Positions 2,128-24,189 of a DNA stretch of 24,576 nucleotides are shown here, piece after piece. The notes below the pieces were generated by a model, which worked only from the letters and a program-made list of their open reading frames with translations, made no database searches and was not told where the DNA came from. The DNA comes from a virus: the IMG/VR virus record IMGVR_UViG_3300044712_001424, positions 1 through 24,576 of that record. The stretch is one strand, 5' to 3'. The first letter of the stretch is position 1. Each line of letters opens with the position of its first letter. A program made the position numbers and the translations under genes.

Positions 2128-4353
2128 TTGAAACAAGTTTTATTCTCAATTTTATTCCTTGTTCTTTCCTTTCCGGCCTTCGCCCAAGCGCGCAAGGCGC
2201 AATCGCAACGGCTCACGGTTGTGTCACGTGATTTTACAATCACGAACTTCGGAGCCGTCGGCGACGGACAGGTTGCCACGGATTGCTCGATGGCGAATGG
2301 CTCTCCGGTGTTGACCTGCGGCGGTTCACGCTTTGTCGCCGAAGATGTCGGCAAAGTCGTGGCTGTCTACGGTGCAGGAATTCTCCGCAACGGCTACCGA
2401 CAACCGCTGGCGGCAACGATCACGACCTATTTGTCCGCCAGCCAAATTACACTGAGCGCGAACGCGCAAGCCGATGTCATCAATTCGGAGCGCGTGCTTT
2501 GGGGCACGAACAACACGGCAGCCATTCAAGCGGCAGTGAACGCAGCGGCAGACGCTGGCGGCGGATTGGTTTTTGTTCCTGATGGCCTGTTTCTAACCGA
2601 AGGCGCATATCTGGACTGTTCCACCATTGGCAACTTTCCCGGCTACGGCTACGGCCCATGCATCCGTGCGTACAACAACATTTCAATCAAAGGCAGTTCG
2701 GCACTTACATCAATTCTGGAAAACTGGAACCCTGACGTGCAGACCATCGGCGGCGTGATTGACCTTGGAAAAGGCGCGGAAATCCCCGGCTTCGGCGTGG
2801 CGAATTGGCCACCCAAACGACTGGCGAATATCGAAATCAGCAATCTGACAATCCGGCAAGTGAAGTACCCGACACGCCCGGTGAAGATCATTTCCGCTTA
2901 TGCCACGGAAGATGTTTCGATCCACGACTGTTACCTATTTGGTTACAGCTACGAAGGCGTGTACATGGGCGGCGGGTTCAAGTCCATTCGCTGGCGCGTG
3001 TTCAATAACGTTGCCTACGAAATCGGCAAAGGCGGGCCTGCTTATGGCAACACAACCAGCGCCTACAACCTGAACGGCTCATACGTCGAAGCCTTCGGTA
3101 ATAAAGCCAGCAATTGTGGCCAGTGCTTTGAAAGCGGCTCGCGCCACTCCTATTTTTACAACAACTTTTGCGAGAACTCCGTCCATTCGTTCCTGCTCGG
3201 TTCAACAGGTTCCGGCGTGTGGGACGTGACGATCAGCGGCAATGTGTTGCGCAATAATTACTATGCGCTGGTCGCGGGCAATGGCAACGGCACGCTGCAT
3301 TCCATCCGGTTTGTCGGCAACACGATGATTGACACGCCGGACATCAATTTCAGTTTTGGCGCAAACACCAACACGGTTAACGAGGTCGAAACCGACACCT
3401 TGATTCACGGGCAATCCGTGATCAGCGACAACGTGTTCACGTTCACCGACGCGCGCCATGCTGCGCGTTCAATCTTTCGCTTTTTTCAGAATCCTACCTT
3501 CGTCAATGTCGGTTCGGAGAATTTGACCGTCGCCGACAACACCATCACCTTCGCCGGATTGCCCACCGGCCCCGTGTTACAGATTGGCGGACAGGGCGGC
3601 TACAAATGGGAGCCGGGCCGAGCGTTTGCACTGAATGCTCCGGCCGTCAGTTCGATGTGGTCAGGCTATTGGTACAAGGCGACGAACGCGGGAGTGACGG
3701 GAGTAATCGAACCGATTTGGCCGCAAGGGCAGGGCCAAACAGTGACAGATGGAACCATCACGTGGCTGTGTATGGGAGCGCGCCCGCAAATCCATTTTTA
3801 CGACAATCGCGTGATTCTGCCGGGGAACATTCCGGCCAGCGGATCGCTCTATTCCACTTGGCCAGGGGCCATCCGCATTGATTACGGTGTGCGCGAAATG
3901 CTCAAGGTCAACAACTTCCAGTTGACGGGCGCGGACTGGCGGCTGATGGTTGTTTCGCCGGATATGCACGAGGAAATCGTGCCACGTGACGCGCCGTACA
4001 GCGACACCAATCGTTATTCCTACAGCTTCGGCGACGCGGAGCCGCGCGCCGGGTTCTGGAGCTTTGGAACCCGCGTCAGTAAGCGTACGCTTGCCGCCGA
4101 CGGCACGTATGGATGGATCGTGACGCGAGCGGGTTATGCCGCGCTGCCGTATTCCGCGACAGCCAGTTATTCCGCGTTCGGCACATTTGCCAAGCCAACC
4201 ACGGACAACGGCTTCGTGTATCAACTGATCGCCGGTTCGTGTTCGAACACTGCCGAGCCAGTTTGGCCAACGGTGATCAATCAAACTGTTATCAGCAACG
4301 GCTGCACCTGGAAAACGGCGGCAGTGTCCGCCCGATTTACTCCGCTTCGATAA
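2128..4353 (+). CDS. Secreted pectate-lyase-fold (beta-helix) protein, putative depolymerase or tailspike
   Basis: 741 aa from a TTG start, preceded by AAGGAAG at about 2117-2123. Residues 1-19 form a Sec signal peptide (Lys2, hydrophobic core, AFA before Gln20). Residues 30-160 match the start of the pectate lyase superfamily: NFGAVGDG, then NNTAAIQAAVNAA, then GGGLVFVPDG. The middle (about 180-500) has the repetitive N-, G- and V-rich pattern of a right-handed beta-helix, with segments such as ISGNVLRNNYYALV and VADNTITFAG. The C-terminal third holds two related segments (about 513-546 and 695-730) with pattern Y..(8-10)..EP.WP..(4-6)..QTV..G.(2)TW, probably a small beta, carbohydrate-binding-like repeat. 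Phage proteins of this fold usually cleave capsule or exopolysaccharide; the substrate is unknown. The signal peptide is odd for a virion protein, so a released enzyme is an alternative. Confidence 0.78.
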   Translation: MKQVLFSILFLVLSFPAFAQARKAQSQRLTVVSRDFTITNFGAVGDGQVATDCSMANGSPVLTCGGSRFVAEDVGKVVAVYGAGILRNGYRQPLAATITTYLSASQITLSANAQADVINSERVLWGTNNTAAIQAAVNAAADAGGGLVFVPDGLFLTEGAYLDCSTIGNFPGYGYGPCIRAYNNISIKGSSALTSILENWNPDVQTIGGVIDLGKGAEIPGFGVANWPPKRLANIEISNLTIRQVKYPTRPVKIISAYATEDVSIHDCYLFGYSYEGVYMGGGFKSIRWRVFNNVAYEIGKGGPAYGNTTSAYNLNGSYVEAFGNKASNCGQCFESGSRHSYFYNNFCENSVHSFLLGSTGSGVWDVTISGNVLRNNYYALVAGNGNGTLHSIRFVGNTMIDTPDINFSFGANTNTVNEVETDTLIHGQSVISDNVFTFTDARHAARSIFRFFQNPTFVNVGSENLTVADNTITFAGLPTGPVLQIGGQGGYKWEPGRAFALNAPAVSSMWSGYWYKATNAGVTGVIEPIWPQGQGQTVTDGTITWLCMGARPQIHFYDNRVILPGNIPASGSLYSTWPGAIRIDYGVREMLKVNNFQLTGADWRLMVVSPDMHEEIVPRDAPYSDTNRYSYSFGDAEPRAGFWSFGTRVSKRTLAADGTYGWIVTRAGYAALPYSATASYSAFGTFAKPTTDNGFVYQLIAGSCSNTAEPVWPTVINQTVISNGCTWKTAAVSARFTPLR

Positions 4354-4357
4354 CCTT

Positions 4358-4747
4358 ATGAACAAAACACGAATTCTGATTTTTCTGGTGTTTCTTTTTA
4401 CGGGCGCAGCAGTACTCGCCACGGCTCAGAAGCATGACACGGCCTCCATTGCTCAAGCGCCAGAGTTCTCGTATACGCTCACTCCCGAACAGGCCGGGCA
4501 GTGGGCAAAGCTTGTCGAGTTCGAAAAGGCCCAGGCTGAACGCCACGCACAGGCGATCAGTGCCGCGGTCAACACGCCGGTCGGCGAACTCAGCAAAGAT
4601 GTTCATGCCGCCGTGCAATCCACCTGGCTGGCAGTCAATCTGGCGCGCAGCCAAAAAAACGAACGACTCGCACAGCTCCGCGCCGACCACGGCTGTCCAG
4701 ATTGCGTCATCGCCGACGGCAAACTGACCAAGCCAAGACTTCCGTAA
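4358..4747 (+). CDS. Small secreted helical protein, unknown function
   Basis: 129 aa. The ATG lies 4 bases after the stop of the beta-helix gene and has no clear Shine-Dalgarno, so translation is probably coupled. Residues 1-23 are a signal peptide (Asn-Lys-Thr-Arg, long hydrophobic core, ATA before Gln24). The mature part, about residues 40-110, is rich in Ala, Glu, Gln and Lys and looks helical or coiled-coil. It is followed by one CPDC pair near residues 110-115 and a short basic tail. The gene is the last of its transcription unit; an intrinsic terminator follows 33 bases later. I do not recognise the family. Roles as a partner of the upstream beta-helix protein or as a spanin-like envelope protein are possible, but nothing in the sequence decides between them. 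Confidence 0.6.
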   Translation: MNKTRILIFLVFLFTGAAVLATAQKHDTASIAQAPEFSYTLTPEQAGQWAKLVEFEKAQAERHAQAISAAVNTPVGELSKDVHAAVQSTWLAVNLARSQKNERLAQLRADHGCPDCVIADGKLTKPRLP

Positions 4748-4780
4748 GTTTCATTCGCGTTGATCTCCAAAACCACTTAT

Positions 4781-4816
4781 CCGGTCGTGACTATCCCTGG
4801 CGCGACCGGCTTTTTT
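4781..4816 (+). terminator. Intrinsic (Rho-independent) terminator
   Basis: Inverted repeat CCGGTCG (4781-4787) and CGACCGG (4803-4809), extendable by a wobble pair, with a 15-base loop and then C plus six T (4811-4816). It separates the fibre/beta-helix unit from the scaffold/capsid unit, which implies a separate promoter before 4905. The AT-rich stretch 4820-4852 contains TATAAC at 4847-4852 but no convincing -35 partner. Confidence 0.8.
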
Positions 4817-4873
4817 GCTCGCCAAAAATAAAAATTCGCCTCGCCGTATAACTCCCACCGTCGCAGCGGGAAG

Positions 4874-4888
4874 CTGCAAATTTTGCAA
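4874..4888. repeat. Dispersed near-palindrome, copy 1
   Basis: CTGCAAATTTTGCAA, one mismatch from the 15-base form TTGCAAATTTTGCAA. It lies just upstream of the ribosome binding site (GAGGGA, 4893-4898) of the scaffold gene. Confidence 0.5.
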
Positions 4889-4904
4889 ATTCGAGGGATT
4901 CGAT

Positions 4905-5711
4905 ATGCCAGTAAAACAGATTTTTGACTCACGAGACGCTGCGCCGGAATGGCTCCGGCCGGCACTGCTCGAAGACGGAAACGGGAAGTTTGTCTTTGAA
5001 GCGGAAACCACGGTCGAAGTCGCCGGTTTGAAAAAGGCACTCGACGACGAGCGAACAAGCAGGGCTGATTTTGAAAAGAAGCTCTCGGCACTCAAAGGGG
5101 TGGACCCGGAAGAGTACAAGCGGTTGAAGGCCGAAGCCGACAAGGTGGCTGCGGACAAGCTCAAAAACCAGGGGAACTGGGAAGAGCGCGAGAAGCAGCT
5201 CAAGGACCAATTGGCTGCCGATCTGGCTGCGCGGGAAACGCAGTTTAAGACGGAGCTGGATGCTGCCACTCAGCGACAGCAGAAGCTGCAATCGTCGCTG
5301 GAGCGATACCTGATCGAATCGCAGGCCGCCGCCGCGATGGCCGAACCCGGCAAGCCGAAAGGCAATCCGGTGCTGCTGATGCCGCATATTCAGGGCAAGG
5401 TCAAAGTCTTTGAAGAAAACGGCGAGTTTGTCGCGCGCGTGGTTGATTCGGCTGGGAAGCCGCGCATCGCGAACGTCAAAGGCGACCCGTTCACGATCAA
5501 TATGCTGCTCGATGAGATGCGCTCTGATGCTGTCTTTAAGGCGGCGTTTGAGGCATCCGGCGCACACGGCACTGGCGCGCCAGTAGGAAGCACAGGGGCC
5601 GTTGGGAGCGCGATTACATTGACGTCGGCTCAAGCGAAAGACCCGGCGATATACCGACAAGCAAAGGAGGCTGCCGCGAAATCCGGTAGCCAGGTGGTCA
5701 TTACCGATTAA
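4905..5711 (+). CDS. Phage capsid scaffolding protein
   Basis: 268 aa. An upstream in-frame start at 4815 exists, but the ATG at 4905 is preferred because GAGGGA sits 6 bases before it and the longer form would begin inside the terminator T-tract. Residues 1-30 (MPVKQIFDSRDAAPEWLRPA) resemble the N-terminus of phage scaffold or minor structural proteins. Residues 35-140 are a highly charged Lys/Glu/Asp/Gln-rich coiled coil, and the C-terminus carries a KDPAIYRQAKEAAAKSG helix often seen at the end of such scaffolds. The protein would guide assembly of the coat protein encoded directly downstream and leave the procapsid before or during DNA packaging. No protease domain is visible. The position immediately before the major capsid gene strongly supports the call. 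Confidence 0.8.
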   Translation: MPVKQIFDSRDAAPEWLRPALLEDGNGKFVFEAETTVEVAGLKKALDDERTSRADFEKKLSALKGVDPEEYKRLKAEADKVAADKLKNQGNWEEREKQLKDQLAADLAARETQFKTELDAATQRQQKLQSSLERYLIESQAAAAMAEPGKPKGNPVLLMPHIQGKVKVFEENGEFVARVVDSAGKPRIANVKGDPFTINMLLDEMRSDAVFKAAFEASGAHGTGAPVGSTGAVGSAITLTSAQAKDPAIYRQAKEAAAKSGSQVVITD

Positions 5712-5714
5712 CCG

Positions 5715-5738
5715 CTCACGCGGTGTTTCCTGCGTGAG
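5715..5738 (+). promoter_or_regulatory. Hairpin between scaffold and capsid genes
   Basis: Perfect 7-bp inverted repeat CTCACGC (5715-5721) and GCGTGAG (5732-5738) with a 10-base loop and no T-tract. It starts 4 bases after the scaffold stop and ends 4 bases before the capsid AAGGAG (5743-5748). It could stabilise or process the capsid message; this role is inferred from position only. Confidence 0.45.
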
Positions 5739-5758
5739 AAACAAGGAGCACGTTCATA

Positions 5759-6886
5759 ATGAACACGTTGGGAGTTTACGATCCGATTTTTTACGCGCAG
5801 GAAGCGTTGATTTGGTTGCAGAACGCGTTGGGAATGGCGACGCGAGTCCACCGCGGTTACGACAAGGAACCGCAGCAAAAGGGATCCGTTATTTCCATTT
5901 CCCGGCCGTCCACGTTCACGGTGCAAGATGCGCCGTCGAACGCTCAAGACCTCAACACCGGAAGTGTCAACGTTACGCTCGATAAATGGAAAGAAGTGAA
6001 GTTCAAGCTGACCGATAAGGAGTTGAGCTTCACAACCGAAAAGATCATCGAAGATCACATCATGCCGGCTGCCTATGCGCTGGCGGATGACATTGATGCG
6101 AAGCTGTGCGCGCTTTACAAAGATGTGCCCTGGTATCAAACGGCCACCTCGCCGGCTGCTGTTGCCGATCTGACCGCGCTCCAGCGGATTATGTTCACCA
6201 ATAAGGTGCCGAACCGCAATCGCAGCCTGATGCTGTCTGGTGTACTGCGCGAAGAGTTCTTGAACATTTCCGCGTTCAGTCAATGGCAGGGCGCTGGCAG
6301 TGACGGTGTCAACACCCAGAAGGAAGGCGATCTGGGTATGAAGTATGGATTCGACACCTTTGCAAACCAGAACGCACAGACCCACACGCAGGGCGTTGCC
6401 GCCGACGCGACCGGCGCGCTGAATGGCGCGGTGGTAAAAGGCGCAACGACTATCGCGTTTGACGGCGTCACGATCGGCGGCACGTTCAAGGCTGGCGACA
6501 CCTTCGTTCTGGCCGGCAACTCCCAGCGCTACAGCTTTACGGCGGATGTGACTGCCGACGGCGGTGGCGCGGTCGCCAGTGCCAGTATCACTCCGGCGCT
6601 TGTTCAGGATTACGCTGACAACGTGGTGATGACGATCAACCTGGTTGGCGGTGTCCAGTCTCTGGCCTTCCACAAAAACGCCTTTGCCTTGGCGATGGCG
6701 CCCTTGTCCGAGATGGGCAATCAACTCGGCGCGCGCATCGCAACGATCACCGATCCTGTCACCAGCCTGAGCATTCGCTCGCGCATTTACTACGTTGGCA
6801 ACAGCTCTGAAGTGCATGTCGCGCTCGACTGCCTGTATGGCGTCAAAACGCTCGATCCCAATCTGGCGTGCCGGTTGGTGGACTAA
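5759..6886 (+). CDS. Major capsid protein, P22 coat-like
   Basis: 375 aa, with AAGGAG 10 bases before the ATG. The overall pattern fits the P22 gene 5 coat family, an HK97-fold shell protein: an N-terminal segment with YDPIFYAQEALIWLQNALG, then a block around KWKEVKFKLTDKELSF, and a long helix IMPAAYALADDIDAKL. A variable insertion around residues 215-310 (AFDGVTIGGTFKAGDTFVLAG, then ITPALVQDYADN) corresponds in style to the extra beta domain of this family. The C-terminal part has SLAFHKNAFALAMAPL and RIYYVGNSSEVHVALDCLYG, typical of these coats. It lies between the scaffold gene and the head-tail connectors, where the major capsid gene is expected, and is bracketed by a hairpin and a terminator-like stem that probably set its expression apart. 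Confidence 0.88.
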   Translation: MNTLGVYDPIFYAQEALIWLQNALGMATRVHRGYDKEPQQKGSVISISRPSTFTVQDAPSNAQDLNTGSVNVTLDKWKEVKFKLTDKELSFTTEKIIEDHIMPAAYALADDIDAKLCALYKDVPWYQTATSPAAVADLTALQRIMFTNKVPNRNRSLMLSGVLREEFLNISAFSQWQGAGSDGVNTQKEGDLGMKYGFDTFANQNAQTHTQGVAADATGALNGAVVKGATTIAFDGVTIGGTFKAGDTFVLAGNSQRYSFTADVTADGGGAVASASITPALVQDYADNVVMTINLVGGVQSLAFHKNAFALAMAPLSEMGNQLGARIATITDPVTSLSIRSRIYYVGNSSEVHVALDCLYGVKTLDPNLACRLVD

Positions 6887-6899
6887 ACCCACACTGAGG

Positions 6900-6943
6900 G
6901 CAGGTAATCGGTTCACGCCGGTTACCTGCGCTTTGCAATTTTT
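6900..6943 (+). terminator. Terminator-like hairpin after the capsid gene
   Basis: 12-bp stem with one G-U pair, formed by 6900-6911 (GCAGGTAATCGG) and 6918-6929 (CCGGTTACCTGC) around a 6-base loop. The downstream stretch GCTTTGCAATTTTT ends in five T, but the T-run is not directly against the stem, so termination may be partial. This is a common arrangement behind highly expressed capsid genes. Confidence 0.6.
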
Positions 6944-6947
6944 GCAG
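6933..6947. repeat. Dispersed near-palindrome, copy 2 (diverged)
   Basis: TTGCAATTTTTGCAG, two mismatches from the 15-base form. It overlaps the T-tract of the preceding hairpin and the beginning of the AGAGGA site of the next gene. Confidence 0.35.
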
Positions 6948-6955
6948 AGGACACA

Positions 6956-7144
6956 ATGGAAACAATCAAGGTTTTCTGGAAAGACAAATTTAACGGCGAG
7001 TTGGTTTTGATCAACGCCTCGGATTTCGATCCGGCCAAGCATCGGCGCGAGGCGGATGGTCCTTGGCTGGTCGAAGCGACTGACCCAAGTTCCCCAGACA
7101 GCACCAGCGACCCGGATGCCGACAAGGGCAAAAAGAAAAAGTAA
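6956..7144 (+). CDS. Small post-capsid protein, unknown function
   Basis: 62 aa, with AGAGGA (6946-6951) 4 bases before the ATG. The N-terminal half contains VFWKDKFNGELVLINASDFD, a short beta-type segment with the INASDFDPAKH pattern seen in small phage proteins encoded directly after the major capsid gene. The C-terminal half is disordered, acidic and Ser/Pro-rich, ending in a KGKKKK tail. The stop TAA is immediately followed by the ATG of the next gene. A head accessory role is inferred from position only; no catalytic motif is present. Confidence 0.65.
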   Translation: METIKVFWKDKFNGELVLINASDFDPAKHRREADGPWLVEATDPSSPDSTSDPDADKGKKKK

Positions 7145-8061: not shown

Positions 8062-8219
8062 AAAGAGTAATTGGAAGGATTCTAAAGTTTGCTTTTAATC
8101 CCGCCAATCAATCACTGAGCCAGGCTTTTTGGTGCGACCGGAAGCCGTCAATTCTGGCCAGGATTTGGTGGAGACTTTACATAGTGATCGTGCCCGAAAG
8201 GGCAAAGGCCTGGTGGTAA
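8058..8219 (+). CDS. Small basic protein of 53 aa, unknown function
   Basis: The ATG overlaps the stop of the head-closure gene in an ATGA arrangement, and AAGAGGTG (8044-8051) lies just upstream, so it is well placed for translational coupling. The product begins MKRVIGRILKFAFNP and ends ERAKAWW; it is rich in Arg, Lys and Trp, with an amphipathic or weakly hydrophobic segment ILARIWWRLYIVIV near residues 32-45. The stop TAA (8217-8219) lies two bases before the next start. It could be a peripheral membrane protein; I recognise no family. Start/stop fit with both neighbours is the main evidence that it is real. Confidence 0.5.
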   Translation: MKRVIGRILKFAFNPANQSLSQAFWCDRKPSILARIWWRLYIVIVPERAKAWW

Positions 8220-8221
8220 CT

Positions 8222-8464
8222 ATGAAACTGATTGTTCACGCAAAGAAAAGCGACCCGCGCGTAGCGGCCTATCTGGCGACGCGCACAGATGCGGACGTCG
8301 GCGAACACGTGACCTACGACGGCACGCCAGTCCAATGCGATGAAGTCATTGTCTCGGCGGAACTGGCAAACGTGGACGCCATTTGCGCTGCGTACAAGGC
8401 CGAAGGCATCAAGGTCACTACACTGAGCAAACACGTGGAACCTCCCACACCGAAGGCGGATTGA
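8222..8464 (+). CDS. Small conserved-type structural-region protein, unknown function
   Basis: 80 aa when started at the ATG at 8222, which follows GGTGG by 5 bases. A longer in-frame version from 8129 would overlap the 53-aa gene almost completely and has a less protein-like N-terminus, so I prefer the short form. The sequence MKLIVHAKKSDPRVAAYLA followed by VIVSAELANVDAICAAYKAEG suggests a compact alpha/beta domain, with a Pro-rich tail. It lies among neck and tail-completion genes and may be a minor head-tail or tail-completion component, but no motif identifies it. Confidence 0.6.
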   Translation: MKLIVHAKKSDPRVAAYLATRTDADVGEHVTYDGTPVQCDEVIVSAELANVDAICAAYKAEGIKVTTLSKHVEPPTPKAD

Positions 8465-8468
8465 ACCA

Positions 8469-8783
8469 ATGGCAGCGACCTGGAAAAGCAACATTGCAAA
8501 GATCAAAACGCTTAGCCGGGAAGAGCTGCGCAAACTGATTGGCACCGCGACGCTCAAGATCGAAGCCGAAGCCAGGATGGGTGCGCCGGAGGATACCGGG
8601 TTTCTGCGCAGCTCGATTGCGAACAGCTTCCCTGATGATCTGACCGGCGTGGTCAGCGTCGGCGCGGAATACGGCATTTACGTCGAGATGGGCACCACGC
8701 GAACGCCTGCGCAGCCGTTTCTGTTGCCCGCTGCTGAACGAGTGATGAAAGAACTTGGCGGCGAATTGAAGCAAGTGATCTGA
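8469..8783 (+). CDS. HK97 gp10-like neck/tail completion protein
   Basis: 104 aa, starting 4 bases after the previous stop. It shows the family signature clearly: an N-terminal helix, then EARMGAPEDTGFLRSSI, then VGAEYGIYVEMGTTRTPAQPF followed by LLPAAERVM. The APxDTGxLRxSI and YxxYVExGTxxxPAxPFLxPA pattern defines the HK97 gp10 family of small virion proteins that sit at the head-tail joint or complete the tail. Length is near the family norm. It is followed by the DUF3168 tail terminator, the usual gene order. Confidence 0.85.
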   Translation: MAATWKSNIAKIKTLSREELRKLIGTATLKIEAEARMGAPEDTGFLRSSIANSFPDDLTGVVSVGAEYGIYVEMGTTRTPAQPFLLPAAERVMKELGGELKQVI

Positions 8784-8784
8784 G

Positions 8785-14105: not shown

Positions 14106-14798
14106 ATGGCCACAGTCTTCGACGAAACCGCACTTCTCAACAACTGCGCTGACGGCGGCGTGATTGATTACAACGCCATCTCCGGCGGGCCGGAAAAGTC
14201 CACGACCGTCATCACTTCGCCGTTCAGCGGCGTCAGCCAGCGCAATGTCAACCGGCTCGATCCGCTCCATCGCTACCAGATCAATACAGCCTTGCTGACG
14301 CAAGCGCAGTTAAATGACCTGCGCACCTTCTTTCATTGTCGCGACGGCCAGGCGCGGGGCTTCCGGATGAAAGACATGATGGAGTTCTGGGCCAGCGCCG
14401 ACGGCACGCCGTATCAACCCATCGGCACGCCGAACAACTTCGGCACCGGCGACGGCTCGACGAAGGTGTTCGGGTTGTACAAGACGTACACCAGCGGCGG
14501 AGTCACGCGAACCCGGCGCATCGTAAAGCCAGTCAGCGGGTCGGTTTCGATTTATGTGAACGGTGTGCTGAAAACGCTGACGACGGATTACACGATTGAT
14601 TCGACCACGGGCATCGTCACGTTTGTGACCGCGCCGACGAATGGCCATGCGCTGACGTGGACGGGCACTTTTCACACGCCAGTACGATTCGCTACAGACT
14701 ATTTCAGTCCGCAGATGAATGACGCGATCACGGCGCTCAGTTATGACAATTTGCCGTTACTGGAGATTTGCGCCGCAGAATTCGACCTTGCCGTTTAA
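14106..14798 (+). CDS. Distal tail protein, DUF2460 (gene transfer agent gp12-like)
   Basis: 230 aa. The family pattern is clear: N-terminal [20 protein letters not shown] and [15 protein letters not shown], then [19 protein letters not shown], and a central [20 protein letters not shown] followed by [18 protein letters not shown]. It ends with the [17 protein letters not shown] strand before the last strand [16 protein letters not shown]2460 proteins form the hexameric ring at the bottom of the tail tube to which the hub binds. Its TAA (14796-14798) overlaps the reverse-strand stop of the HNH gene. The gene is intact, so the neighbouring insertion did not damage it. Confidence 0.85.
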
Positions 14799-15388
14799 GC
14801 GATATGATCCCAGACTTTGCGTTTCATAACTGCATAAATCAGAGTCATGTCAACACCGTATTCATCGGCCAGCATTTGATAAGTGACCACTTTAGGCTGG
14901 TAGCGTGCGCGAATATCTCTTACCGCAGCTTCATTCAGTTTTGCATTATGGTGCTTTGTGCCACGTGGCAGGCGATGTCGGTGCGTGCGCGAAGGATTCT
15001 GGTCGCCATGTTTCACCAATTGCGGGTTCAGCCTGACGGCGTTTCTGTTACCACTAGCAGCGCGGCCTTTAGTCTTCATGTCAGCAGAATTGTCGGCAAC
15101 AGTTCCGAGAAACAGATGAGCCGGATTACAACAGCGACGATTATCGCATGTGTGACAAACCAAGAGATTGCCCGGCTCGATGCCATAATGAAGAAAGTAA
15201 GCGACGCGATTCGCTTTCAAGTTGCTGTACTTAACCGCGAATTCTCCGTAGCCATTACTGAAACATCCGGCAGACCATTCCCAGCAATTACCCTCTGGGC
15301 CTTGCCCTTGAGACTTGTTTACCTTACTCCAAAATCGGTGGATGTCTTGCGAGGTAAATGGTGGCAGTTTAGGATTTGGCTTAGCCAT
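14795..15388 (-). CDS. HNH homing endonuclease, free-standing
   Basis: 197 aa on the reverse strand, the only antisense gene. Two ATGs are possible (15394 and 15388); AAGGAG at 15400-15395 touches the first but is 6 bases from the second, so 15388 is chosen. Residues 35-60 hold the [16 protein letters not shown] type N-terminal strand pair. The HNH core is [22 protein letters not shown], split here as His79, Asn88 and His91 with Cys78/81/86/87, followed by [12 protein letters not shown]. The C-terminal part ([18 protein letters not shown], then [19 protein letters not shown]) is a helix-turn-helix DNA-binding module seen in intron and phage homing nucleases. It probably nicks or cuts phage alleles lacking it and spreads by repair. 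GC is lower than in neighbouring genes, in keeping with mobility. Confidence 0.88.
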
Positions 15389-15419
15389 AATCATCTCCTT
15401 GATAGATGGTTATCGGTTA

Positions 15420-15453
15420 GGGCTTCTGAAATGCTCCAACATCTCGGAAGCCC
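15420..15453. promoter_or_regulatory. Hairpin in the HNH-DUF2163 gap
   Basis: 10-bp stem with one G-U pair: GGGCTTCTGA (15420-15429) with TCGGAAGCCC (15444-15453), 14-base loop. It lies in the 5' leader of the reverse-strand HNH gene and upstream of the forward hub gene. It has no adjacent T-tract, so a regulatory or processing role is more likely than termination. Confidence 0.45.
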
Positions 15454-15504
15454 CATAAACACAGCCATTTTATCACCCTTTCATCAAAACACGGAGGTCT
15501 TTTT

Positions 15505-16833
15505 ATGGCAATAAGTGTGGCGATGAAGAGCCATCTTGCAAATTCTGCAACGTATCTCTGTCATCTTTGGAAAATCGAAGAGCGTCCGCGCGAAATTCCG
15601 ATCACCTGGGCTGCGGCGTCCATCGCCAACGTCGTCGCGCGCGGCGGATATCTGCGCAAGAACGCCGGCACGGATGGCAGCGACGATGCGGCAGCGCGCT
15701 CGATCACGGCGTTCAACGGTGACATCTACGTGAAGCACACCACTCGGCTCGACGGCACAGTGTATTTCGGTCTGGCAACCAACAACACGACCGCAGCGGC
15801 CAGTTCGATCAACTTCGCCATTCGTGTTGAATCCAACGGCACGATCAAGGTTTACGAAGGCGGAACGCTGAAGGCAACGGCTTCGGCGACCGCCAAGAAA
15901 GGCGACTGGTTGCGCGTTCAGCGCGTCGGCACGACCATCACCTATTGGCACAATCGCACGAAGATTTACACGTCAGCGACAGCAACGAGCAGTGCGCTCT
16001 ATTGCGACACCTCCATCGTGACCCGCAACGCGACGATTCAAGACGCTGTGTTTGGTTACGTGCCGACCGTCATCACGGTGACCGACCACACGCGCAAGCT
16101 GACGTACGATGGCGACACCTTCAATCCGTTGCCGATGCTGCCGACGCGCATCGTTCGCTCCGCAGGCCTCAAGCCGGACAATGCCGAGCTGACGCACATT
16201 CTGAGCAGTTCTGGCGTTTCTGAAGCCGATATTCTGGGCGGGCGCTGGGATTATGCGCGGTTCGAATTCATGACGGTCAATTATCTGGATCTGACGATGG
16301 GCGTGGCACAGCGCATGGTCGGCCGGTTTGGCGAGTTCAAAATTGACAATGGCCGATTCCAGGCAGAGTTGCGCAGCTTGTCCCAGCCGCTCAGCCAGGA
16401 CATCGGCGACCTGGTCGGCTCGCTCTGCTCGGTCCGGCGGCTCGGCGATTTGCGGTGTGGTTTGCCGATGGACAGCTACACTCACGAAACCAGCGTCGCC
16501 AGCGCCAGCGGCTTGGAATTGACGGTCAGTCTCAGCCCGGCCAAAGCCGATGGATACTTTGAATATGGCCTGGTCTGGTTTCGGACTGGTGAGAACAAAC
16601 TGTATGAGCGCGAGATCAAGACCAACGTCGGCAATGTGTTGACGTTGCAGCGCCCATTCCCGTTCACGCCGCAGGCCGGAGATTTCGTGACGGTCGTCGC
16701 CGGTTGCAACCGCACCCTGGCCAAGTGCAAAACCTTCGTAAATGCGAATGAGCCGAGCGGTACGAATGTCGAAAACTTCGGCGCATCCCCGCACGTGCCG
16801 GGCAATAGCAAGCTGCTTCGCTATCCAGAATGA
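15505..16833 (+). CDS. Tail hub protein, DUF2163/BR0599-type (gp13-like), with inserted lectin-like domain
   Basis: 442 aa, with GGAGG (15493-15497) 7 bases before the ATG. Residues 1-32 (MKSHLANSATYLCHLWKIEE) begin the DUF2163 domain, which resumes at about 190 with TVTDHTRKLTYDGDTFNPL. It continues through YARFEFMTVNYLDLTMGV and the C-terminal BR0599-like region: LCSVRRLGDLRCGLPMDSYT, TLQRPFPFTPQAGDFVTVVA, then CNRTLAKCKTFVNANEPSG ending in FGASPHVPG. Family knowledge: the N-terminal half forms the hub ring under DUF2460, and the Cys-rich C-terminal part binds iron-sulfur or metal in some relatives. Residues about 33-188 are not part of that family; they form a beta-rich domain with GDWLRVQRVGTTITYWHN, related to the insert in the large hub at 19227. 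It probably decorates the tail tip. Confidence 0.83.
   Translation: MAISVAMKSHLANSATYLCHLWKIEERPREIPITWAAASIANVVARGGYLRKNAGTDGSDDAAARSITAFNGDIYVKHTTRLDGTVYFGLATNNTTAAASSINFAIRVESNGTIKVYEGGTLKATASATAKKGDWLRVQRVGTTITYWHNRTKIYTSATATSSALYCDTSIVTRNATIQDAVFGYVPTVITVTDHTRKLTYDGDTFNPLPMLPTRIVRSAGLKPDNAELTHILSSSGVSEADILGGRWDYARFEFMTVNYLDLTMGVAQRMVGRFGEFKIDNGRFQAELRSLSQPLSQDIGDLVGSLCSVRRLGDLRCGLPMDSYTHETSVASASGLELTVSLSPAKADGYFEYGLVWFRTGENKLYEREIKTNVGNVLTLQRPFPFTPQAGDFVTVVAGCNRTLAKCKTFVNANEPSGTNVENFGASPHVPGNSKLLRYPE
15536..15550. repeat. Dispersed near-palindrome, copy 4
   Basis: TTGCAAATTCTGCAA, one mismatch from the 15-base form, located 31 bases inside the DUF2163 gene. Confidence 0.45.
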
Positions 16834-16841
16834 TCCGCAAA

Positions 16842-16875
16842 ATAAACCGCAGGCCTCGGCTACGCTGCGGTTTAT
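16842..16875 (+). promoter_or_regulatory. Perfect 11-bp hairpin pairing with the next start codon
   Basis: ATAAACCGCAG (16842-16852) and CTGCGGTTTAT (16865-16875) around a 12-base loop. The right arm includes the first two bases of the ATG at 16874, and no Shine-Dalgarno is visible before that ATG. It could block translation of the secreted protein unless opened by ribosomes or a factor; it may also act as a weak terminator after the hub gene. Confidence 0.6.
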
Positions 16876-17398
16876 GAAATACCTATTTTTAACCTTCTGT
16901 CTGTTGTTGCTGGCTGTGCCGATCTCTGCGCAGATCAAGCCGGTCGTCGTGGAGCTCGGGCCGGAAGCCTATTCGACATTGCCGCATTCCGGCGGTGCTC
17001 GGTGGGTCGTGCGTGGATACGTTTATGCGCCCGGCACCTTCACCAGCAAAGATGAATGCGCTAATGCGCCGGTGACGGCCGTGCCGATTGGCACCTACGC
17101 TATCTTCGGCGAAAAGGGAACTGCCGCCAATCACACGGCGATTTACCGCGTCACGATCCAGGGCCAGCAATTCTTTTTCAGCGGCATCGTTGAACGTTAC
17201 GACGACGAATCCGGCCAGCCCGGCTCGACGCTCTTCGATCTGTTGCGCAGCCCGGTCACGCGTAATCCACAAGCTGAATTCGCCGATTACACGCCGCGGT
17301 CGGCCGTGTGCTTTGGCGGCCGGCTGAAACTGTATTTACGAGAAGAGGGATCGAATGGACGATCAGGATTTGATAAGCGAACAGAGCGAAGATTTTGA
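16874..17398 (+). CDS. Secreted protein of unknown function
   Basis: 174 aa from the ATG at 16874; an upstream in-frame ATG at 16742 lies inside the hub gene and would bury the signal peptide, so it is rejected. Residues 1-19 are a strong Sec signal peptide (Lys2, core LFLTFCLLLLAV, ISA before Gln20). The mature domain has two cysteines (in KDECANAP and SAVCFGG) that could form a disulfide in the periplasm. It also has beta-type segments RWVVRGYVYAPGTF, YAIFGEKGTA, AIYRVTIQGQQFFFSGIVER and GGRLKLYL. The last 16 residues overlap the next gene by 44 bases and look less constrained. I do not recognise the family. A secreted product inside a tail-tip operon may be a host-surface modifier or superinfection-exclusion factor, but this is a guess from location. 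Confidence 0.62.
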   Translation: MKYLFLTFCLLLLAVPISAQIKPVVVELGPEAYSTLPHSGGARWVVRGYVYAPGTFTSKDECANAPVTAVPIGTYAIFGEKGTAANHTAIYRVTIQGQQFFFSGIVERYDDESGQPGSTLFDLLRSPVTRNPQAEFADYTPRSAVCFGGRLKLYLREEGSNGRSGFDKRTERRF

Positions 17399-17555: not shown

Positions 17556-17579
17556 ACAATGAGTCAGTGAGGCCAGCCG

Positions 17580-18092: not shown

Positions 18093-18110
18093 GAGGTCAA
18101 GCAAGAAAAG

Positions 18111-19142
18111 ATGAAAATCTATCTTTTGAATGAAGGTGAAAAAGGCAAGTTTGAGCAAAAAACATGGGCCTTTTTCTTTTATCGAAGCGCTTTGAAAGCG
18201 GCAAAGGAACGGATAGCCGAAGGAGGGGAATGGGAGCCCGTAACAGACCATGAAACCAGCGCAAAAGCGTTTTGGGTTACTTCGGCACTGTGGCTATCAA
18301 TTACTCCGCTGCCTTTGTTCTTTTCTACTTGGTTGCCGTTCTTCTTAATGCGTCAATGGATTCGGCGGCGATTCCATTGGCAAAACCTGAACGATAAGAA
18401 AGACGGCTTAATCGGCTCTGGCTGGAAACATGGTCGCGCTTGGTTTCACCGTAAATGGAACGAAGAGCGCGGCGGCTACGGTAAACGCAGCCGTCAAATT
18501 TGCTTTTCTTGGAACTTTGAGCCGCGTTGGTGGATTGGTGTTGCGATGAACTTGTTCGACGGCGATAACGAGCGAGATATCGGATTCAATCTCAATCTAG
18601 GCATCGCGCATTTCTACCTGACTCTTGAAAACTTTCTTTCACGCGAAAAGGCCAATCGCCACAATTGGGCGCATAAAACTGGTATTTCATATTTTGAAGA
18701 TCATCTTTCTGTTGATTTTCATTACGCCGGTTCTGACTGCTGGGACTGCGAAGGGTGGAAGGGAAAGCATTGGTCATGTTTCGTTCGGGATAAGCTTCTT
18801 GGAAGCGCCAAGTACGAGTCTTGTGAAATTGAGACGGTTCAAGTCGAAGTGCCTATGCCTGAAGGTGTCTATTCAGCCAACGTAAAACTTACCGAAGATT
18901 CTTGGAAGCGCCCGCTCTGGCCAATTCCGTCCAAGATTCGTCGCGCGCATATTGAGTGCGAGAGAGGCATCCCATACCCAGGCAAAGGAGAAAATTCTTG
19001 GGATTGCGATGATGATGCGACTTATGGTCTGACCTGTCCCGCTTCAACGGTCGAAGAGGCTATTACAGCCCTTCAACAAACAGTGATGCGCTCCCGCGAA
19101 CGGTACGGCGGAAAGAATTGGGTGCCTGCCTGTCACGCATAA
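18111..19142 (+). CDS. Phage accessory protein of unknown function, lower GC
   Basis: 343 aa. AGGAGG (18091-18096) overlaps the NlpC stop and is 14 bases from the ATG, an unusually long spacing. Base composition drops clearly (some 60-base lines near 32-48% GC), so the gene was probably acquired separately. One hydrophobic segment lies at about residues 54-80 (FWVTSALWLSITPLPLFFS and following). The rest is rich in Trp, His and Tyr, with blocks WNFEPRWWIGVAMN, DIGFNLNLGIAHFYL and VQVEVPMPEGVYSANVKL. Near the end come IPYPGKGENSWDCDDDATYG and TVEEAITALQQTV. The PMPEG and PGKGENSWDC blocks resemble, from memory, a protein family found in many unrelated phages without known function. Its slot between NlpC and the hub is a usual place for 'moron' insertions. 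Confidence 0.7.
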   Translation: MKIYLLNEGEKGKFEQKTWAFFFYRSALKAAKERIAEGGEWEPVTDHETSAKAFWVTSALWLSITPLPLFFSTWLPFFLMRQWIRRRFHWQNLNDKKDGLIGSGWKHGRAWFHRKWNEERGGYGKRSRQICFSWNFEPRWWIGVAMNLFDGDNERDIGFNLNLGIAHFYLTLENFLSREKANRHNWAHKTGISYFEDHLSVDFHYAGSDCWDCEGWKGKHWSCFVRDKLLGSAKYESCEIETVQVEVPMPEGVYSANVKLTEDSWKRPLWPIPSKIRRAHIECERGIPYPGKGENSWDCDDDATYGLTCPASTVEEAITALQQTVMRSRERYGGKNWVPACHA

Positions 19143-19172
19143 TCATTCTCCGAATTGCGCTCGCCGGTAGCA

Positions 19173-19206
19173 AGCCGTAGCGACACTGGGCATTGCCGTC
19201 GCGGCT
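19173..19206 (+). promoter_or_regulatory. Possible stem-loop before the large hub gene
   Basis: AGCC(GTA)GCGAC at 19173-19184 can pair with GTCGCGGCT at 19198-19206, leaving a 3-base bulge. It sits just before the GAAGGGA site (19213-19219) of the hub gene in an 84-base gap that otherwise holds nothing recognisable. Confidence 0.3.
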
Positions 19207-19226
19207 TCCTCTGAAGGGATGCAGAG

Positions 19227-22200
19227 GTGGCGAGCATCAACTGTATGGGCTTTCTTCTGTTACTTGTGGAGCCGTTTTCGTGGACGGCATTCTTCATCAG
19301 CCTGGCGCTGTCGGCGGCCAGCTATGCCGTGCAGCGTATTTTCGGCCCGAAGCCTCCGAAAGCGGTGCGTGGGCAGATGCAGGGCGATCTGTTCATTCAG
19401 AATGCCGACGAAGGAAGCCCGATTGTCGAGATTTATGGCGGCGCGCCCGGCACCGCCGTAAACAAAGTCACGTGGACCGGACTGACCAACACTCGCGTCA
19501 ACGCCGACAACAGTCTGGAAAAGATCAGCGGCGCCGACAACTGTTTCACCAACGCCTCTGGCTCTGGCGACGGCGGCGCGCGCAGCGTCGAGACTGTCAC
19601 CAGTGGCGATTGGGAACTGAGCTTCAGTTTTGATTCCGTCACCGAAGGGCGCGGGTTTGGCGGGCTGACCACCAACGGCAGCTTCACGACCGACTACACC
19701 CAGCTCAATTACTGCATCCACGTCAGCGACCAGAACAACACCTCCGGAACGCCGCATCCTCCGCATTCGATCTTCATTTACGAATCCGGCTCCGGCCGCA
19801 GCATCTCGGCGTCGTTGCAGGATGGCACGTACACCGCAGGCGACACGTTGCGCATTCAATGCGTCAGTGGCGTCGTCAAGTACTATCACAAACAGAATCT
19901 GCTCTATACCTCCGGCGTCACGCCGAGCTATCCGATGCGCGTCGGCGCATCCCTGGCCTGCCTGAACAAGACGATTGATGACGTCACGCTGACGACGGCG
20001 TCTGTGGATACCAAGGGTGGCATCAAAACCGCCGGAACGGTCGTGTGGTGCAAACCGCCGCGCAAGGTCGTCACGAAAGAGAAAAAGGGCGGCAAGGGAA
20101 TGCCCAAACAGACGGTCGAGACGATCACCTATTACACCGATCTGGCCATTCTATTTGGACGTGGACGATTGCGCTTGAAAAAGCTCTGGACGAATGCCGA
20201 TCTGGTGCTGGACCTCGACGCCGGCATCGGTTCGGCGACGGGTGTCGTGGACTCCGGATCGAGCGGCGCGACCAGTTACAGTCAGGGCAGTCCGCCCAGC
20301 GCAACCGGCACAGACAACGCGCCAAATACATTCTGGGGAATTCGGCTGACGACGGATCAGAACGGCACCCTCAGCGGAACCGTCGGCGCGGGCGGAGGCG
20401 CTTTGATGCGCTGGTATGAAGGCAACTACGATCAGTTGCCGGATCCGCTGATTCAAGGCGACGTCGGCGCGGCGAACACGCCTGCGTATCGTGGCCTGGC
20501 GCTGCTGGTAATCGAAAACTTCGACATCAGCAAATATGGCGGGGTGCCGACGTTTCTGGCGACGGTCGAGAATATGGATTACGACGATCTGGCCGAGATT
20601 GCGAACCATCTGTGCGAACGGGTCGGCATCGAGCCGCAGGATCGCGATTTCAGTGTGTTCGATGGCCAGGCCGTGCGCGGCTTGATTGTTCAGCAGCCGC
20701 AAGCGCCACGGCAGACGCTGGAGATTGCGTCCGTCCCATACCAAGCGCAGTTCTATGAATCGGTGGACGGGTTGTTGACTGGTTGTTATCTGGGCGGCGC
20801 GTCGGTTGTGACGATCAATCCCAATGACCTCGGCATGCAGGACGGTGACGTTGTCAGCACCGACGGAATGGGCAACTTGTTGGAGTTTTCGGTGCTGGCC
20901 GACGACCAATTGCCGCGCCAGCTCAACGTGACGGCGTTTGATCCCTTCAAAGATCACGAATCCATTACCCAGGCTGCCTATCGAATGACCGGCTTCAGTC
21001 AGAGCGTCGAGAATATGACGCTGCCGATGGCCCTCAGCCCGGATGAAGCCCGGCAGTCGGCGGAGCGGCTGCTGTATATGCGCCACGTGGAGCGCGAAAA
21101 CGCCGCGCTGAAATTGCCGTGGAAATATGGATATCTCAACCCCACCGACATTGCCGCCGTGGAATCCGGCACTCTGACTCATCGGCTGCGCGTCGGCACG
21201 ATCAATGGCGCGATGCCGGGTGTTCTGGAAATGCAGTGCGCTGCCGACGAACAGGAAATTTACAGCCAGACCATTGCAGGCACCTCTGGCGATGGGTACA
21301 CCGCGCCGACCGTGTCGGTACCGGTTGAGTCCATCGCGTTGCTGGTGGATTCCGTGATGCTCCGCGACACCGACGACCGGGCCGGGTATTACGCCGCGAT
21401 CGCGCCGAAATCCTCATCCGCGAATTGGGGTGGCGCGGTACTCTATCGAGATCGCGGCGCGGGCTATGAGGTAGTCGAACGGTTTCCGGCGCAGGCCGTC
21501 GCCGGTGTGATCAGCGGTTCGGTCACGTCGCAGGATGAAGCCGTCTGGGATGAAACCACAACGATCACCGTAGACCTTTACGGGACCGACGCCACGCTCG
21601 AAAGTGTCACTGAGGCCGAAGTGCTGAACGGCGCGAATGCGGCCATCATCGGTGACAACCAGGTGATTCAGTTTCAGAACGCGGTGCAGGTCGGCGGGTA
21701 TGACAATCGCTGGACGCTCAGCCGCCTTCTGTGGGGCCGGCGTGGGTCCGACCATTCGGCGGGCACGTATGCCAGCGGCAGCCGGTTTCTGCTGCTCGAT
21801 GGCGCCATTCTGTTTATCGAAAACAGCCTGACGGAACTGGGCATCGCGCGCGATTTCAAAGCGGTGACGGCGGGCTTTTCGATCACTGACACCGCCAGCA
21901 CGTCATTTACCTGGAACGCCAACGGCCTGAAGCCGCTGAGCGTCGTGGACGTCCAGGGAAGCCGCGACGGCTCCAATAATCTGACGATTGTTTGGGTGCG
22001 TCGCTCTCGCCTTGGTCACGAAACACCATACGCCGGCGCAGACCTGCCGCTGGGCGAACAATACGAACGATACGAAGTGGACGTGTACGACGGCGCGTCG
22101 GTCGTGCGGACCATCACGGTCAACGATGCGACGACAGCCAGTTATTCAGCGGCGGAGCAGACGACGGATTTCGGCAGTCCGCAAGCCAGCCTGACGATCA

Positions 22201-22259
22201 AGATTTATCAGATTTCGGCTACGGTAGGCCGGGGATTTGAGCGGAGCGCAACAGTATGA
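19227..22259 (+). CDS. Large tail hub/tip protein (gp15-like) with inserted lectin-like domain
   Basis: 1010 aa from GTG 19227, chosen because GAAGGGA lies 7 bases upstream; an ATG at 19242 is the alternative. Residues 5-38 are hydrophobic, followed by the family's conserved GPKPPKAVRGQMQGDLFIQN and SPIVEIYGG. The conserved strand AGTVVWCKPP follows only at 269, so residues about 77-258 are an insertion: a beta-rich domain with GDTLRIQCVSGVVKYYHK and NLLYTSGV. The remainder matches phage hub proteins: EIANHLCERVGIEPQDRDFS, then RQTLEIASVPYQAQFYESVD, MALSPDEARQSAERLLYMRH, the signature RLLWGRRGSD near residue 835, and a C-terminal fibronectin-III-like end. It would form the central tail tip and probably help pierce the outer membrane. 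The glycoside-hydrolase TIM barrel of the gene transfer agent relative was not recognised. Confidence 0.85.
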   Translation: MASINCMGFLLLLVEPFSWTAFFISLALSAASYAVQRIFGPKPPKAVRGQMQGDLFIQNADEGSPIVEIYGGAPGTAVNKVTWTGLTNTRVNADNSLEKISGADNCFTNASGSGDGGARSVETVTSGDWELSFSFDSVTEGRGFGGLTTNGSFTTDYTQLNYCIHVSDQNNTSGTPHPPHSIFIYESGSGRSISASLQDGTYTAGDTLRIQCVSGVVKYYHKQNLLYTSGVTPSYPMRVGASLACLNKTIDDVTLTTASVDTKGGIKTAGTVVWCKPPRKVVTKEKKGGKGMPKQTVETITYYTDLAILFGRGRLRLKKLWTNADLVLDLDAGIGSATGVVDSGSSGATSYSQGSPPSATGTDNAPNTFWGIRLTTDQNGTLSGTVGAGGGALMRWYEGNYDQLPDPLIQGDVGAANTPAYRGLALLVIENFDISKYGGVPTFLATVENMDYDDLAEIANHLCERVGIEPQDRDFSVFDGQAVRGLIVQQPQAPRQTLEIASVPYQAQFYESVDGLLTGCYLGGASVVTINPNDLGMQDGDVVSTDGMGNLLEFSVLADDQLPRQLNVTAFDPFKDHESITQAAYRMTGFSQSVENMTLPMALSPDEARQSAERLLYMRHVERENAALKLPWKYGYLNPTDIAAVESGTLTHRLRVGTINGAMPGVLEMQCAADEQEIYSQTIAGTSGDGYTAPTVSVPVESIALLVDSVMLRDTDDRAGYYAAIAPKSSSANWGGAVLYRDRGAGYEVVERFPAQAVAGVISGSVTSQDEAVWDETTTITVDLYGTDATLESVTEAEVLNGANAAIIGDNQVIQFQNAVQVGGYDNRWTLSRLLWGRRGSDHSAGTYASGSRFLLLDGAILFIENSLTELGIARDFKAVTAGFSITDTASTSFTWNANGLKPLSVVDVQGSRDGSNNLTIVWVRRSRLGHETPYAGADLPLGEQYERYEVDVYDGASVVRTITVNDATTASYSAAEQTTDFGSPQASLTIKIYQISATVGRGFERSATV

Positions 22260-22450
22260 GCGATTGGCATGTCATCCCCGTTGGAGACCTGAAAGAACAT
22301 ATCAGCGCGAAGGATTGTCATTGCCAACCTTACCAATCGCCGGACCAGCCGAAGCTTTGGATTCACAATTCATTTGATGGACGCGAGTTACTGGAGTTCA
22401 ACGAGGAAGAGTTGAGCCAGGCGACAAGCCGAAAGGAGCTGAACGTATGA
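22256..22450 (+). CDS. Small conserved-looking phage protein, unknown function
   Basis: 64 aa, its ATG overlapping the hub stop by 4 bases (ATGA), and its own stop overlapping the next start in the same way. The sequence has a WHVIPVGDLKEH block, a CHC triplet near residue 21 and HNSFDGREL near 37-45; from memory this resembles small proteins found in many phages after tail or head genes. The His/Cys content leaves metal binding possible. The double overlap indicates coupled translation with both hub and fibre genes. No function can be assigned. Confidence 0.65.
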   Translation: MSDWHVIPVGDLKEHISAKDCHCQPYQSPDQPKLWIHNSFDGRELLEFNEEELSQATSRKELNV

Positions 22451-24189
22451 AGCGATTTGTCTTTTTCCCACTAATATTATTACTAGCTTTTGGACAAACA
22501 GTCTTTGCCCAATCAACAACCACGAATCTCGGCATCGTCAAACCCCAGACCGGCCAAGCACAGCCGCAGGTTACCATCGCCACAGGCTTCGACAACTTCG
22601 ACACCGCCGTCGCGGGCCGCCTGTCGAAGAGTGTCGCCGGATCCGCCGACGTCACACTGACGACGACCGAAGCGCGCAATGCCGTTTTGGAATTTACGGG
22701 CACGTTGACCGGCAATATCAACGTGATTGTGCCGACGAAAAACCGAAAGTTTATCGTCTACAACAATACCTCCGGCGCGTTCACGCTTACGGTCAAAACC
22801 AGCAGCGGCACCGGTGTCGCCGTCACCCAGGGGCAGCGAGTCTGGCTGTATTGCGATGCCACGAACGTCGTCGCGCTCAGCAGCGCCTCCAGCTCGGCGA
22901 CGGCTGTTACTGTCACGGTCGCCAACGAAGGTTCGACCGGCACGCTCGCCAATGGCTTGGCGAAACTGACTGGCGCGCCATCCACCGCGACACGCACGGC
23001 GACCAGCGACACGGGCGGTGCGGTCGGCATTGTCACCAGCGGCGCGGGTACGACCAGCAATGCCACCATTCAGGTCGCCGGGTTGTGCTCATGCGTGTTC
23101 AGTGGAGCTACGACGGCAGGGAATTACGTCATCATCAGCGACGCCACGGCGGGCAATTGCAAAGACGGAGGCTCCAGCTTTCCCACCAGCGGGCAGGCGA
23201 TTGGGCGCGTACTGACGACAAACGGCGGCGCGGGCACTTACCAGATTTACCTCTTCGGTCCGGAAGAGCGTGGCGGCACTTCGGGCGGATCACTGACCGT
23301 CAAAGAAGTGGACGGAACGCCGACAGTGTCGAGCGTGGCGACCTTGCGCGTCAGCAACGGCACACTGACCGATGATGGCGGTGGCCAGGTGACGATCACC
23401 AACACTGGCGGATCCTCAGCCTGGAATGCGTTGACCGATCCGGCAGGAAATCAAACGCTGGCGATGGGATCAAACCTGACAGCGTGGACGTGGGCAGGGA
23501 ATTACGGCTCGTCGGTGGCGCTGGATATTCAAGGCAATAACACGTCGGCGACGGGCGCTCTGATGCGATTGCGAACTGCTGTCAGCAATAGCATGCCGCC
23601 ATTACTGATCGAACCTCGCACCGGCCAGAGTTTCAAGGCCGATCACCTGCAAAACATCTACATCGGCAAAGGCGCAATCGGAAACACTGACACCGATGGG
23701 TATCTATTTCTGCCAGTGATCGGTTCGAACCTTTTTCCCTCCGGCACGCCGACGACGACGTCGGGCTTTGCGCCGGTGGTTCTGGAGTCCGACGGTATCA
23801 ACGGCGATTACGCCTTGTGGGGCTACCAGGGCAGCGCCTGGCGCGATCTGAGCGGCCAGCGCAAACGGTGGGACACTGGCAGCGGATCCGGCGCACAGAC
23901 CATAGATTTCAATTCCTCGACGTCGGCGGTCGTCAGTCGGCAGTTCACACTATCTGGAGGAAACGTCACCTTCACGTTTTCAAATGCACCGAAGGCCGGC
24001 ACGCTGATTAGTCTGAAGATTATTCAGGATGCGACCGGCGGACGCACGGTGACGTGGCCGGCAACGGTGAAATGGCCAGGGGGCACGCCGTTTGCGCCGA
24101 CTTCGACGGCCAACGCGAAGGACGTCTATCTGTTCCTGTGGGACGGTTCGAACTATTGGTTTATTTCGCAATCGCAAGATTTGCAGTGA
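22447..24189 (+). CDS. Tail fibre protein with N-terminal signal peptide
   Basis: 580 aa; AAAGGAG (22433-22439) is 7 bases before the ATG, which overlaps the preceding stop. Residues 1-21 are a Sec signal peptide (Lys2-Arg3, core FFPLILLLAFG, VFA before Gln22). Residues 25-150 form a domain known from phage fibres: TNLGIVKPQTGQ, FDNFDTAVAGRL, TLTGNINVIVPTKNRKFIVY, NNTSGAFTLTVKTSSGTGV and LYCDATNVV. The middle is Thr/Ser/Gly-rich with a CSCVFSGATTAG stretch. The C-terminus (about 490-580) has the fibre-end pattern NVTFTFSNAPKAGTLISLKI followed by QDATGGRTVTWPATVKWPGG and FLWDGSNYWF. The gene follows the hub directly, the normal place for a receptor-binding fibre. A cleavable export signal on a virion fibre is unexpected. 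Confidence 0.8.
   Translation: MKRFVFFPLILLLAFGQTVFAQSTTTNLGIVKPQTGQAQPQVTIATGFDNFDTAVAGRLSKSVAGSADVTLTTTEARNAVLEFTGTLTGNINVIVPTKNRKFIVYNNTSGAFTLTVKTSSGTGVAVTQGQRVWLYCDATNVVALSSASSSATAVTVTVANEGSTGTLANGLAKLTGAPSTATRTATSDTGGAVGIVTSGAGTTSNATIQVAGLCSCVFSGATTAGNYVIISDATAGNCKDGGSSFPTSGQAIGRVLTTNGGAGTYQIYLFGPEERGGTSGGSLTVKEVDGTPTVSSVATLRVSNGTLTDDGGGQVTITNTGGSSAWNALTDPAGNQTLAMGSNLTAWTWAGNYGSSVALDIQGNNTSATGALMRLRTAVSNSMPPLLIEPRTGQSFKADHLQNIYIGKGAIGNTDTDGYLFLPVIGSNLFPSGTPTTTSGFAPVVLESDGINGDYALWGYQGSAWRDLSGQRKRWDTGSGSGAQTIDFNSSTSAVVSRQFTLSGGNVTFTFSNAPKAGTLISLKIIQDATGGRTVTWPATVKWPGGTPFAPTSTANAKDVYLFLWDGSNYWFISQSQDLQ

Follow-up and report, generated by a model that had tools for sequence, protein, structure and literature searches.

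Tail fibres set the host range of tailed phages, and the usual assumption is that their folding and attachment take place in the cytoplasm. In vitro, particles of T4 and P22 that are already complete can still take up fibres or tailspikes. Phage proteins can also be Sec-exported, as are Lom and Bor of lambda. Lys44-type endolysins (PMC6116005) and T4 RI (PMC8385771) are likewise sent through the Sec machinery of the host, but all of these proteins have lysis, antiholin or envelope roles and none is a tail fibre. A tailspike-type beta-helix carrying an export signal is known from WceF of Pantoea (PMC7949094); unlike the protein described here, it is encoded by a bacterial gene within an exopolysaccharide cluster, uses Tat instead of Sec, and lies away from tail genes. 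In the open-access literature searched, with subscription journals largely outside the search, we found no description of a tail fibre with a signal peptide, nor, for tailed phages, of an assembly in which fibres are held in the periplasm and fitted at lysis.

A second comparison concerns the residue behind the cleavage site. In Bacteroidetes, type I signal peptidase (SPase I) exposes a Gln at position +1, the so-called Q-rule (PMC5837995, PMC10653852), which was described as specific to this group in a paper that does not mention Acidobacteria (PMC5837995). Phages of Porphyromonas gingivalis have also been reported to carry genes that follow it (PMC10367356). The locus presented here shares the exposed Gln and the adapted phage genes, but differs in having an Acidobacteriota host with a plant-type glutaminyl cyclase, and in that the proteins concerned include tail fibres, not only proteins of unknown function.

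The window, a virus record of 24,576 bases, encodes a scaffold, a P22-type coat protein, a head-tail connector, a major tail protein, a tape measure, a tail tip and fibre genes. Its sequence places it among the structural genes of an uncultured, temperate tailed phage infecting soil Acidobacteriota. The features relevant to the following discussion are:

2 to 2101, + strand: tail-fibre-like protein, N-terminus beyond the record; prophage homologue C1115:59241-62270 with 82-83% identity over about 80 aa
2128 to 4353, + strand: pectin-lyase-like beta-helix (tailspike-type) protein, 741 aa; TTG start, Sec signal
2128 to 2184, + strand: predicted signal peptide of the 2128 protein, MKQVLFSILFLVLSFPAFA, cut before Q20 (rule-based scan)
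4358 to 4747, + strand: small, predicted exported protein with C-terminal CxxC, 129 aa; homologues with signal peptides in C1115 and G422
4358 to 4426, + strand: predicted signal peptide of the 4358 protein, cut ATA^Q24 (rule-based scan)
4890 to 5711, + strand: head scaffolding protein, no signal (phrog_206)
5759 to 6886, + strand: P22-coat-type major capsid protein, no signal (PF11651 / phrog_283)
16874 to 17398, + strand: predicted exported protein with one conserved Cys pair, 174 aa; signal and Gln kept in prophage homologue (72%)
16874 to 16930, + strand: predicted signal peptide of the 16874 protein, cut ISA^Q20 (rule-based scan)
19227 to 22259, + strand: GTA-megatron-like tail tip protein without cleavable signal (PF13550, PF23666, NF048004 partial)
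22447 to 24189, + strand: tail fibre adjoining the tail tip gene, Sec signal, 580 aa (phrog_12796 and 9017, tail fibre)
22447 to 22509, + strand: predicted signal peptide of the 22447 fibre, cut VFA^Q22; homologues lacking a signal have their start Met here

The 22447 protein combines fibre domains with a place in the tail operon, as is characteristic of a phage tail fibre. For the 2128 protein, PHROG and NCBIfam matches to pectin-lyase/galacturonidase folds are weak. A sequence search against solved structures returned no usable match, and AlphaFold2 models were too poor for a fold search, both for the 2128 protein (pLDDT 34, single sequence without alignment) and for the 16874 protein (pLDDT 47, two sequences). 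Two further open reading frames lie among the tail genes. An HNH_3 endonuclease is encoded on the opposite strand (14795-15394, -) between tail genes 14106 and 15505, with no homologue detected in prophage C1115, and a 343-aa protein without Pfam match (18111-19142) is encoded after the 17580 gene and ahead of the tail tip, with no homologue among the related loci examined.

Signal peptides were identified with our own rule set, which looks for a charged n-region, a 10-residue hydrophobic core and an AxA-type site, and ignores the +1 residue; it is a home-made, small-sample predictor that miscuts some sites. On the forward strand it yields exactly four credible signals, on genes 2128, 4358, 16874 and 22447, while the other forward-strand structural genes carry none; two false-looking ORFs (14876-15514, +, and 8177-8557, -) are flagged as well. 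All four proteins show the n-, h- and c-regions and the AxA-type cut of Sec/SPase I substrates, and all are predicted to be cut before Gln: MKQVLFSILFLVLSFPAFA^QARK (2128), MNKTRILIFLVFLFTGAAVLATA^QKHD (4358), MKYLFLTFCLLLLAVPISA^QIKP (16874) and MKRFVFFPLILLLAFGQTVFA^QSTT (22447). The scan thereby agrees with the first-pass annotation, which had read the same four signals as ending in AFA, ATA, ISA and VFA directly before Gln and had placed two of them on a beta-helix and a fibre protein; of the proteins concerned, two, probably three, are of fibre/spike type. Good Shine-Dalgarno sequences precede the starts at 2128 (aaaggaagtatc before TTG) and 22447 (aaaggagctgaacgt before ATG). The starts at 4358 and 16874 have none, and their homologues start at the same Met. 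Disulfide enrichment was also considered as an independent sign of export and rejected, as the set predicted to be exported is not significantly enriched in Cys.

Which host do these signals belong to? A capsid-based search of named genomes identified one near-identical relative (97%) on contig JAEUQP010000041.1 of an Acidobacteria MAG. This contig of 82.6 kb consists of about 34 kb of bacterial genes, followed by a tyrosine-type integrase and a syntenic prophage, here called C1115. Two related genomes carry a bacterial gene from the flank of the prophage at 93-96% identity, so the contig is no stray phage fragment. The 97% identical capsid protein and the synteny with this Acidobacteria prophage led us to reject a Bacteroidetes host.

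The C1115 homologues of the 4358, 16874 and 22447 proteins retain both signal and Gln. The truncated gene 2-2101 also has a homologue there whose predicted signal is cut before Gln (MKVQRAIVLCVLLLMPLLAMA^QPSL). The 2128 beta-helix gene has no counterpart in C1115, and no homologue was found with which to follow the conservation of its signal. A third phage, G422, has a very different capsid protein (27% identity); its distal fibre, a fib0-type protein and a 4358-type protein occupy corresponding places in the gene order. The distal fibre and the fib0-type protein, the latter encoded directly ahead of the head genes, have signals with Gln at +1; its 4358-type protein has a signal with Lys, not Gln, at this position. 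The 4358 homologues are 60% identical in C1115 and weakly so (24-30%) in G422. Conservation across homologues is what one expects of Sec/SPase I signals, and it bears out the check that the first-pass annotation had proposed: related phages keep the signal and, for the fibre, the Gln. Misplaced start codons can be rejected, as homologues in independent phages retain signal and Gln and relatives lacking a signal begin at the mature position. Upstream of the packaging genes, C1115 and G422 also encode homologous Cys-rich proteins predicted to be exported (C1115:50711-51787 and G422:19010-20026, 26% identity).

The same first-pass annotation had called for a comparison with the +1 residue in the host proteome. 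In the rest of the MAG, 6 of 10 predicted signal peptides have Gln at +1, whereas E. coli K-12 run through the same code yields 1 of 13 (Fisher p 0.02 on these raw counts). Because the cut of one further call is three residues off and two others resemble membrane anchors, the share corrected by eye is about 7/8 in this small sample. Among genomes listed as relatives, Gln occupies this position in roughly half of the signals in four genomes and in almost none in another pooled set. The host counts are small, and MAG binning and record ends restrict completeness; within these bounds, most predicted SPase I substrates of the MAG follow the Q-rule, as is the habit of several, not all, related genomes. 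A predicted plant-type glutaminyl cyclase (PF05096) is encoded in 12 of the 15 genomes searched, namely in the MAG itself and in 11 of the 14 relatives. The MAG protein has a lipobox (FTAAC), is thus a predicted lipoprotein and should sit in the periplasm or on a membrane. A locus of this kind, a cyclase lipoprotein in an Acidobacteria MAG with a Gln-favouring secretome, is G001:C947:3170-3880 (L143).

SPase I is encoded in the host too. Given the Gln bias, the cyclase and the SPase I, the four Gln residues are what would be expected of a phage adapted to this host. By chance, Gln at +1 in four out of four would have a probability of 6e-6 to 1e-4 at a background of 5-10%; at the rate of the host it is unremarkable, which argues for host adaptation and not for a phage oddity. 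The earlier suggestion of a Q-rule host therefore stands as far as the match with the host secretome is concerned, but falls on taxonomy: the host belongs to the Acidobacteriota, not to the Bacteroidetes.

Ordinary fibres and tailspikes (PHROGs 12796, 9017 and 31104; pectin-lyase tailspikes) resemble the window proteins in their domains, their adjacency to the tail tip, and their conserved N-terminus with a variable distal part. What sets the window fibre apart is an added, cleavable Sec signal that is missing from 77 of 79 sampled viral contigs with this fibre N-terminus, the two exceptions being G422 and a near-duplicate. Compared with C1115, the 22447 fibre has only 30% identity in its signal peptide, which nevertheless still reads as a signal. 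Identity rises to 84% over residues 22-140 (dN about 0.11, dS about 1.0) and drops to 32% in the distal half. Residues 22-140 are thus comparable to the tail tip of the same phage pair, which shows 84-91% identity over its last 700 residues. A conserved docking end with a replaced distal part is, at the level of sequence, the pattern of a virion fibre. The fibre signal is kept in three phages despite its divergence, and so is the +1 Gln; these predicted signals are conserved as function, not as sequence.

Where such a signal is absent, the fibre begins almost exactly at the mature residue. The close relative G421 carries this tail module too, with 62% identity in the tail tip and 61-81% in three further distal tail proteins, but its fibre lacks this signal and starts MATTTNL, where the window reads VFA^QSTTTNL. 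The acidobacterial prophage L193 and the cyanophage MinM2 show the same start at the mature position. Ordinary tail fibres therefore appear to have had signals grafted onto them, and the signal in the window looks fused in such a way that its removal would restore nearly the usual N-terminus.

Scans of viral contigs with each of the four window proteins found nothing; those that worked used the capsid protein and the fibre module. The viral contigs matched by the C1115 fibre, with the matches in an internal module, were examined with fixed signal rules. Signals occur in 11 of 58 distinct fibre ORFs, compared with 11 of the 332 other genes of these loci (odds ratio 6.8, p 6e-5), and further fibre ORFs with a signal were recognised by eye (L204, L206, L258, L263). 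Three loci (L207, L226, L230) encode at least two consecutive signal-bearing fibre-type genes, and L207 reads PLHA^ADTQTPLLGLTKPDAPANTWGSKLNTNFD, a signal immediately ahead of a standard tail-fibre start. Predicted export signals on fibres are thus a recurrent feature of other environmental phages.

Signal-bearing genes near the head module were observed in the same clade. One family with a predicted signal lies just downstream of the capsid gene (L023:9348-10118, L034:2909-3694, L073:2551-3648, its start also in L043) in phages of this capsid clade, one of them in a Planctomycetes MAG, and has a domain in common with the major tail protein of the window, which has no signal. Another protein close to the head genes (L039:2994-3677, L073:4301-5029) looks like a beta-barrel, has a signal cut before Gln, resembles lambda Lom in this respect and found no Pfam match.

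Our main reading, to which we assign a probability of about 0.7, is that the phage produces its tail fibres or spike, together with two or more small accessory proteins, as Sec precursors, which are exported and processed in the style of the host. On the sequence evidence, signal peptides were acquired ahead of ordinary tail-fibre N-termini, with a cut site obeying the Gln habit of a host that encodes both SPase I and the predicted lipoprotein cyclase. During late expression the fibres would be translocated, cleaved by SPase I and probably capped with pyroglutamate; the mature fibres may then be retained in the periplasm, folding apart from virions assembling in the cytoplasm, until lysis would bring the two together. 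What happens next is a more tentative matter. Docking of the fibres onto released virions after lysis is our leading guess, at somewhat less than even odds, because cleavage leaves nearly the N-terminus that signal-less fibres have after Met loss, because purifying selection acts on the docking region as it does on the tail tip, and because C1115 and G422 have no other recognised fibre genes. Against the export scheme stand the Lys at +1 of the 4358-type protein in G422 and the lack of a significant Cys enrichment, and the scheme offers no route for trimeric fibres across the outer membrane before lysis.

The exported fibres and the beta-helix protein might instead never be part of virions and act outside the cell or at its envelope, serving as depolymerases or decoys or blocking receptors against superinfection, a serious possibility that we nevertheless would not bet on. 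The resemblance of the 2128 protein to pectin-lyase/galacturonidase folds fits such free effectors, as does the export of tailspike-fold glycanases by bacteria, for example WceF (PMC7949094), and the presence of the 22447 fibre module in a signal-bearing acidobacterial protein (L196). L258 encodes two fibre-type genes with a common N-terminal motif, one without a signal and one with it (2872-4356 and 5344-6879), which suggests that the exported copy there is additional to the one used in the virion. However, every recognised fibre-type gene in C1115 and G422 bears a signal, which would leave the tail tip as the sole receptor binder of a virion without them, and it is the docking region of the fibre that is best conserved while the distal part is swapped.

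The genes might also be lysogenic-conversion products, expressed from the prophage for display on the host surface like the morons Lom and Bor of lambda. The closest relative is indeed an integrated prophage, and other phages of the clade (L039, L073) encode small signal-bearing proteins in the head module, one of them beta-barrel-like; this reading could apply to the 4358 and 16874 proteins. As a general account it is unlikely, since the genes sit in the late structural operon and the 78632 fibre even overlaps the stop of the tail tip gene. Least probable, and in our view improbable, is that the hydrophobic stretch does not serve export at all, being bypassed or used as an anchor within the virion. 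Fibres are normally cytoplasmic, and the tail tip proteins of the clade have hydrophobic N-termini without a cleavage site; yet the AxA-type site and the Gln are kept while the hydrophobic sequence has diverged, these phages have the Gln in proteins of unrelated families as well, and signal-less relatives do well without any such stretch.

If this lineage exports its fibres as the main reading holds, its virions would be completed after lysis, or its surroundings would be flooded with free receptor-binding proteins. Either outcome, if true, would revise our view of host range, superinfection and biofilm clearance in soil phages. A whole environmental class of phages whose virion fibres mature outside the cytoplasm, being Sec-exported, pyroglutamate-capped, held in the periplasm and fitted at lysis, is conceivable though rather doubtful. 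For the hosts, the analysis places Gln-at-+1 secretion together with a plant-type cyclase in the Acidobacteriota, a phylum absent from the Q-rule paper, and the +1 Gln may become a marker by which phages can be assigned to such hosts.
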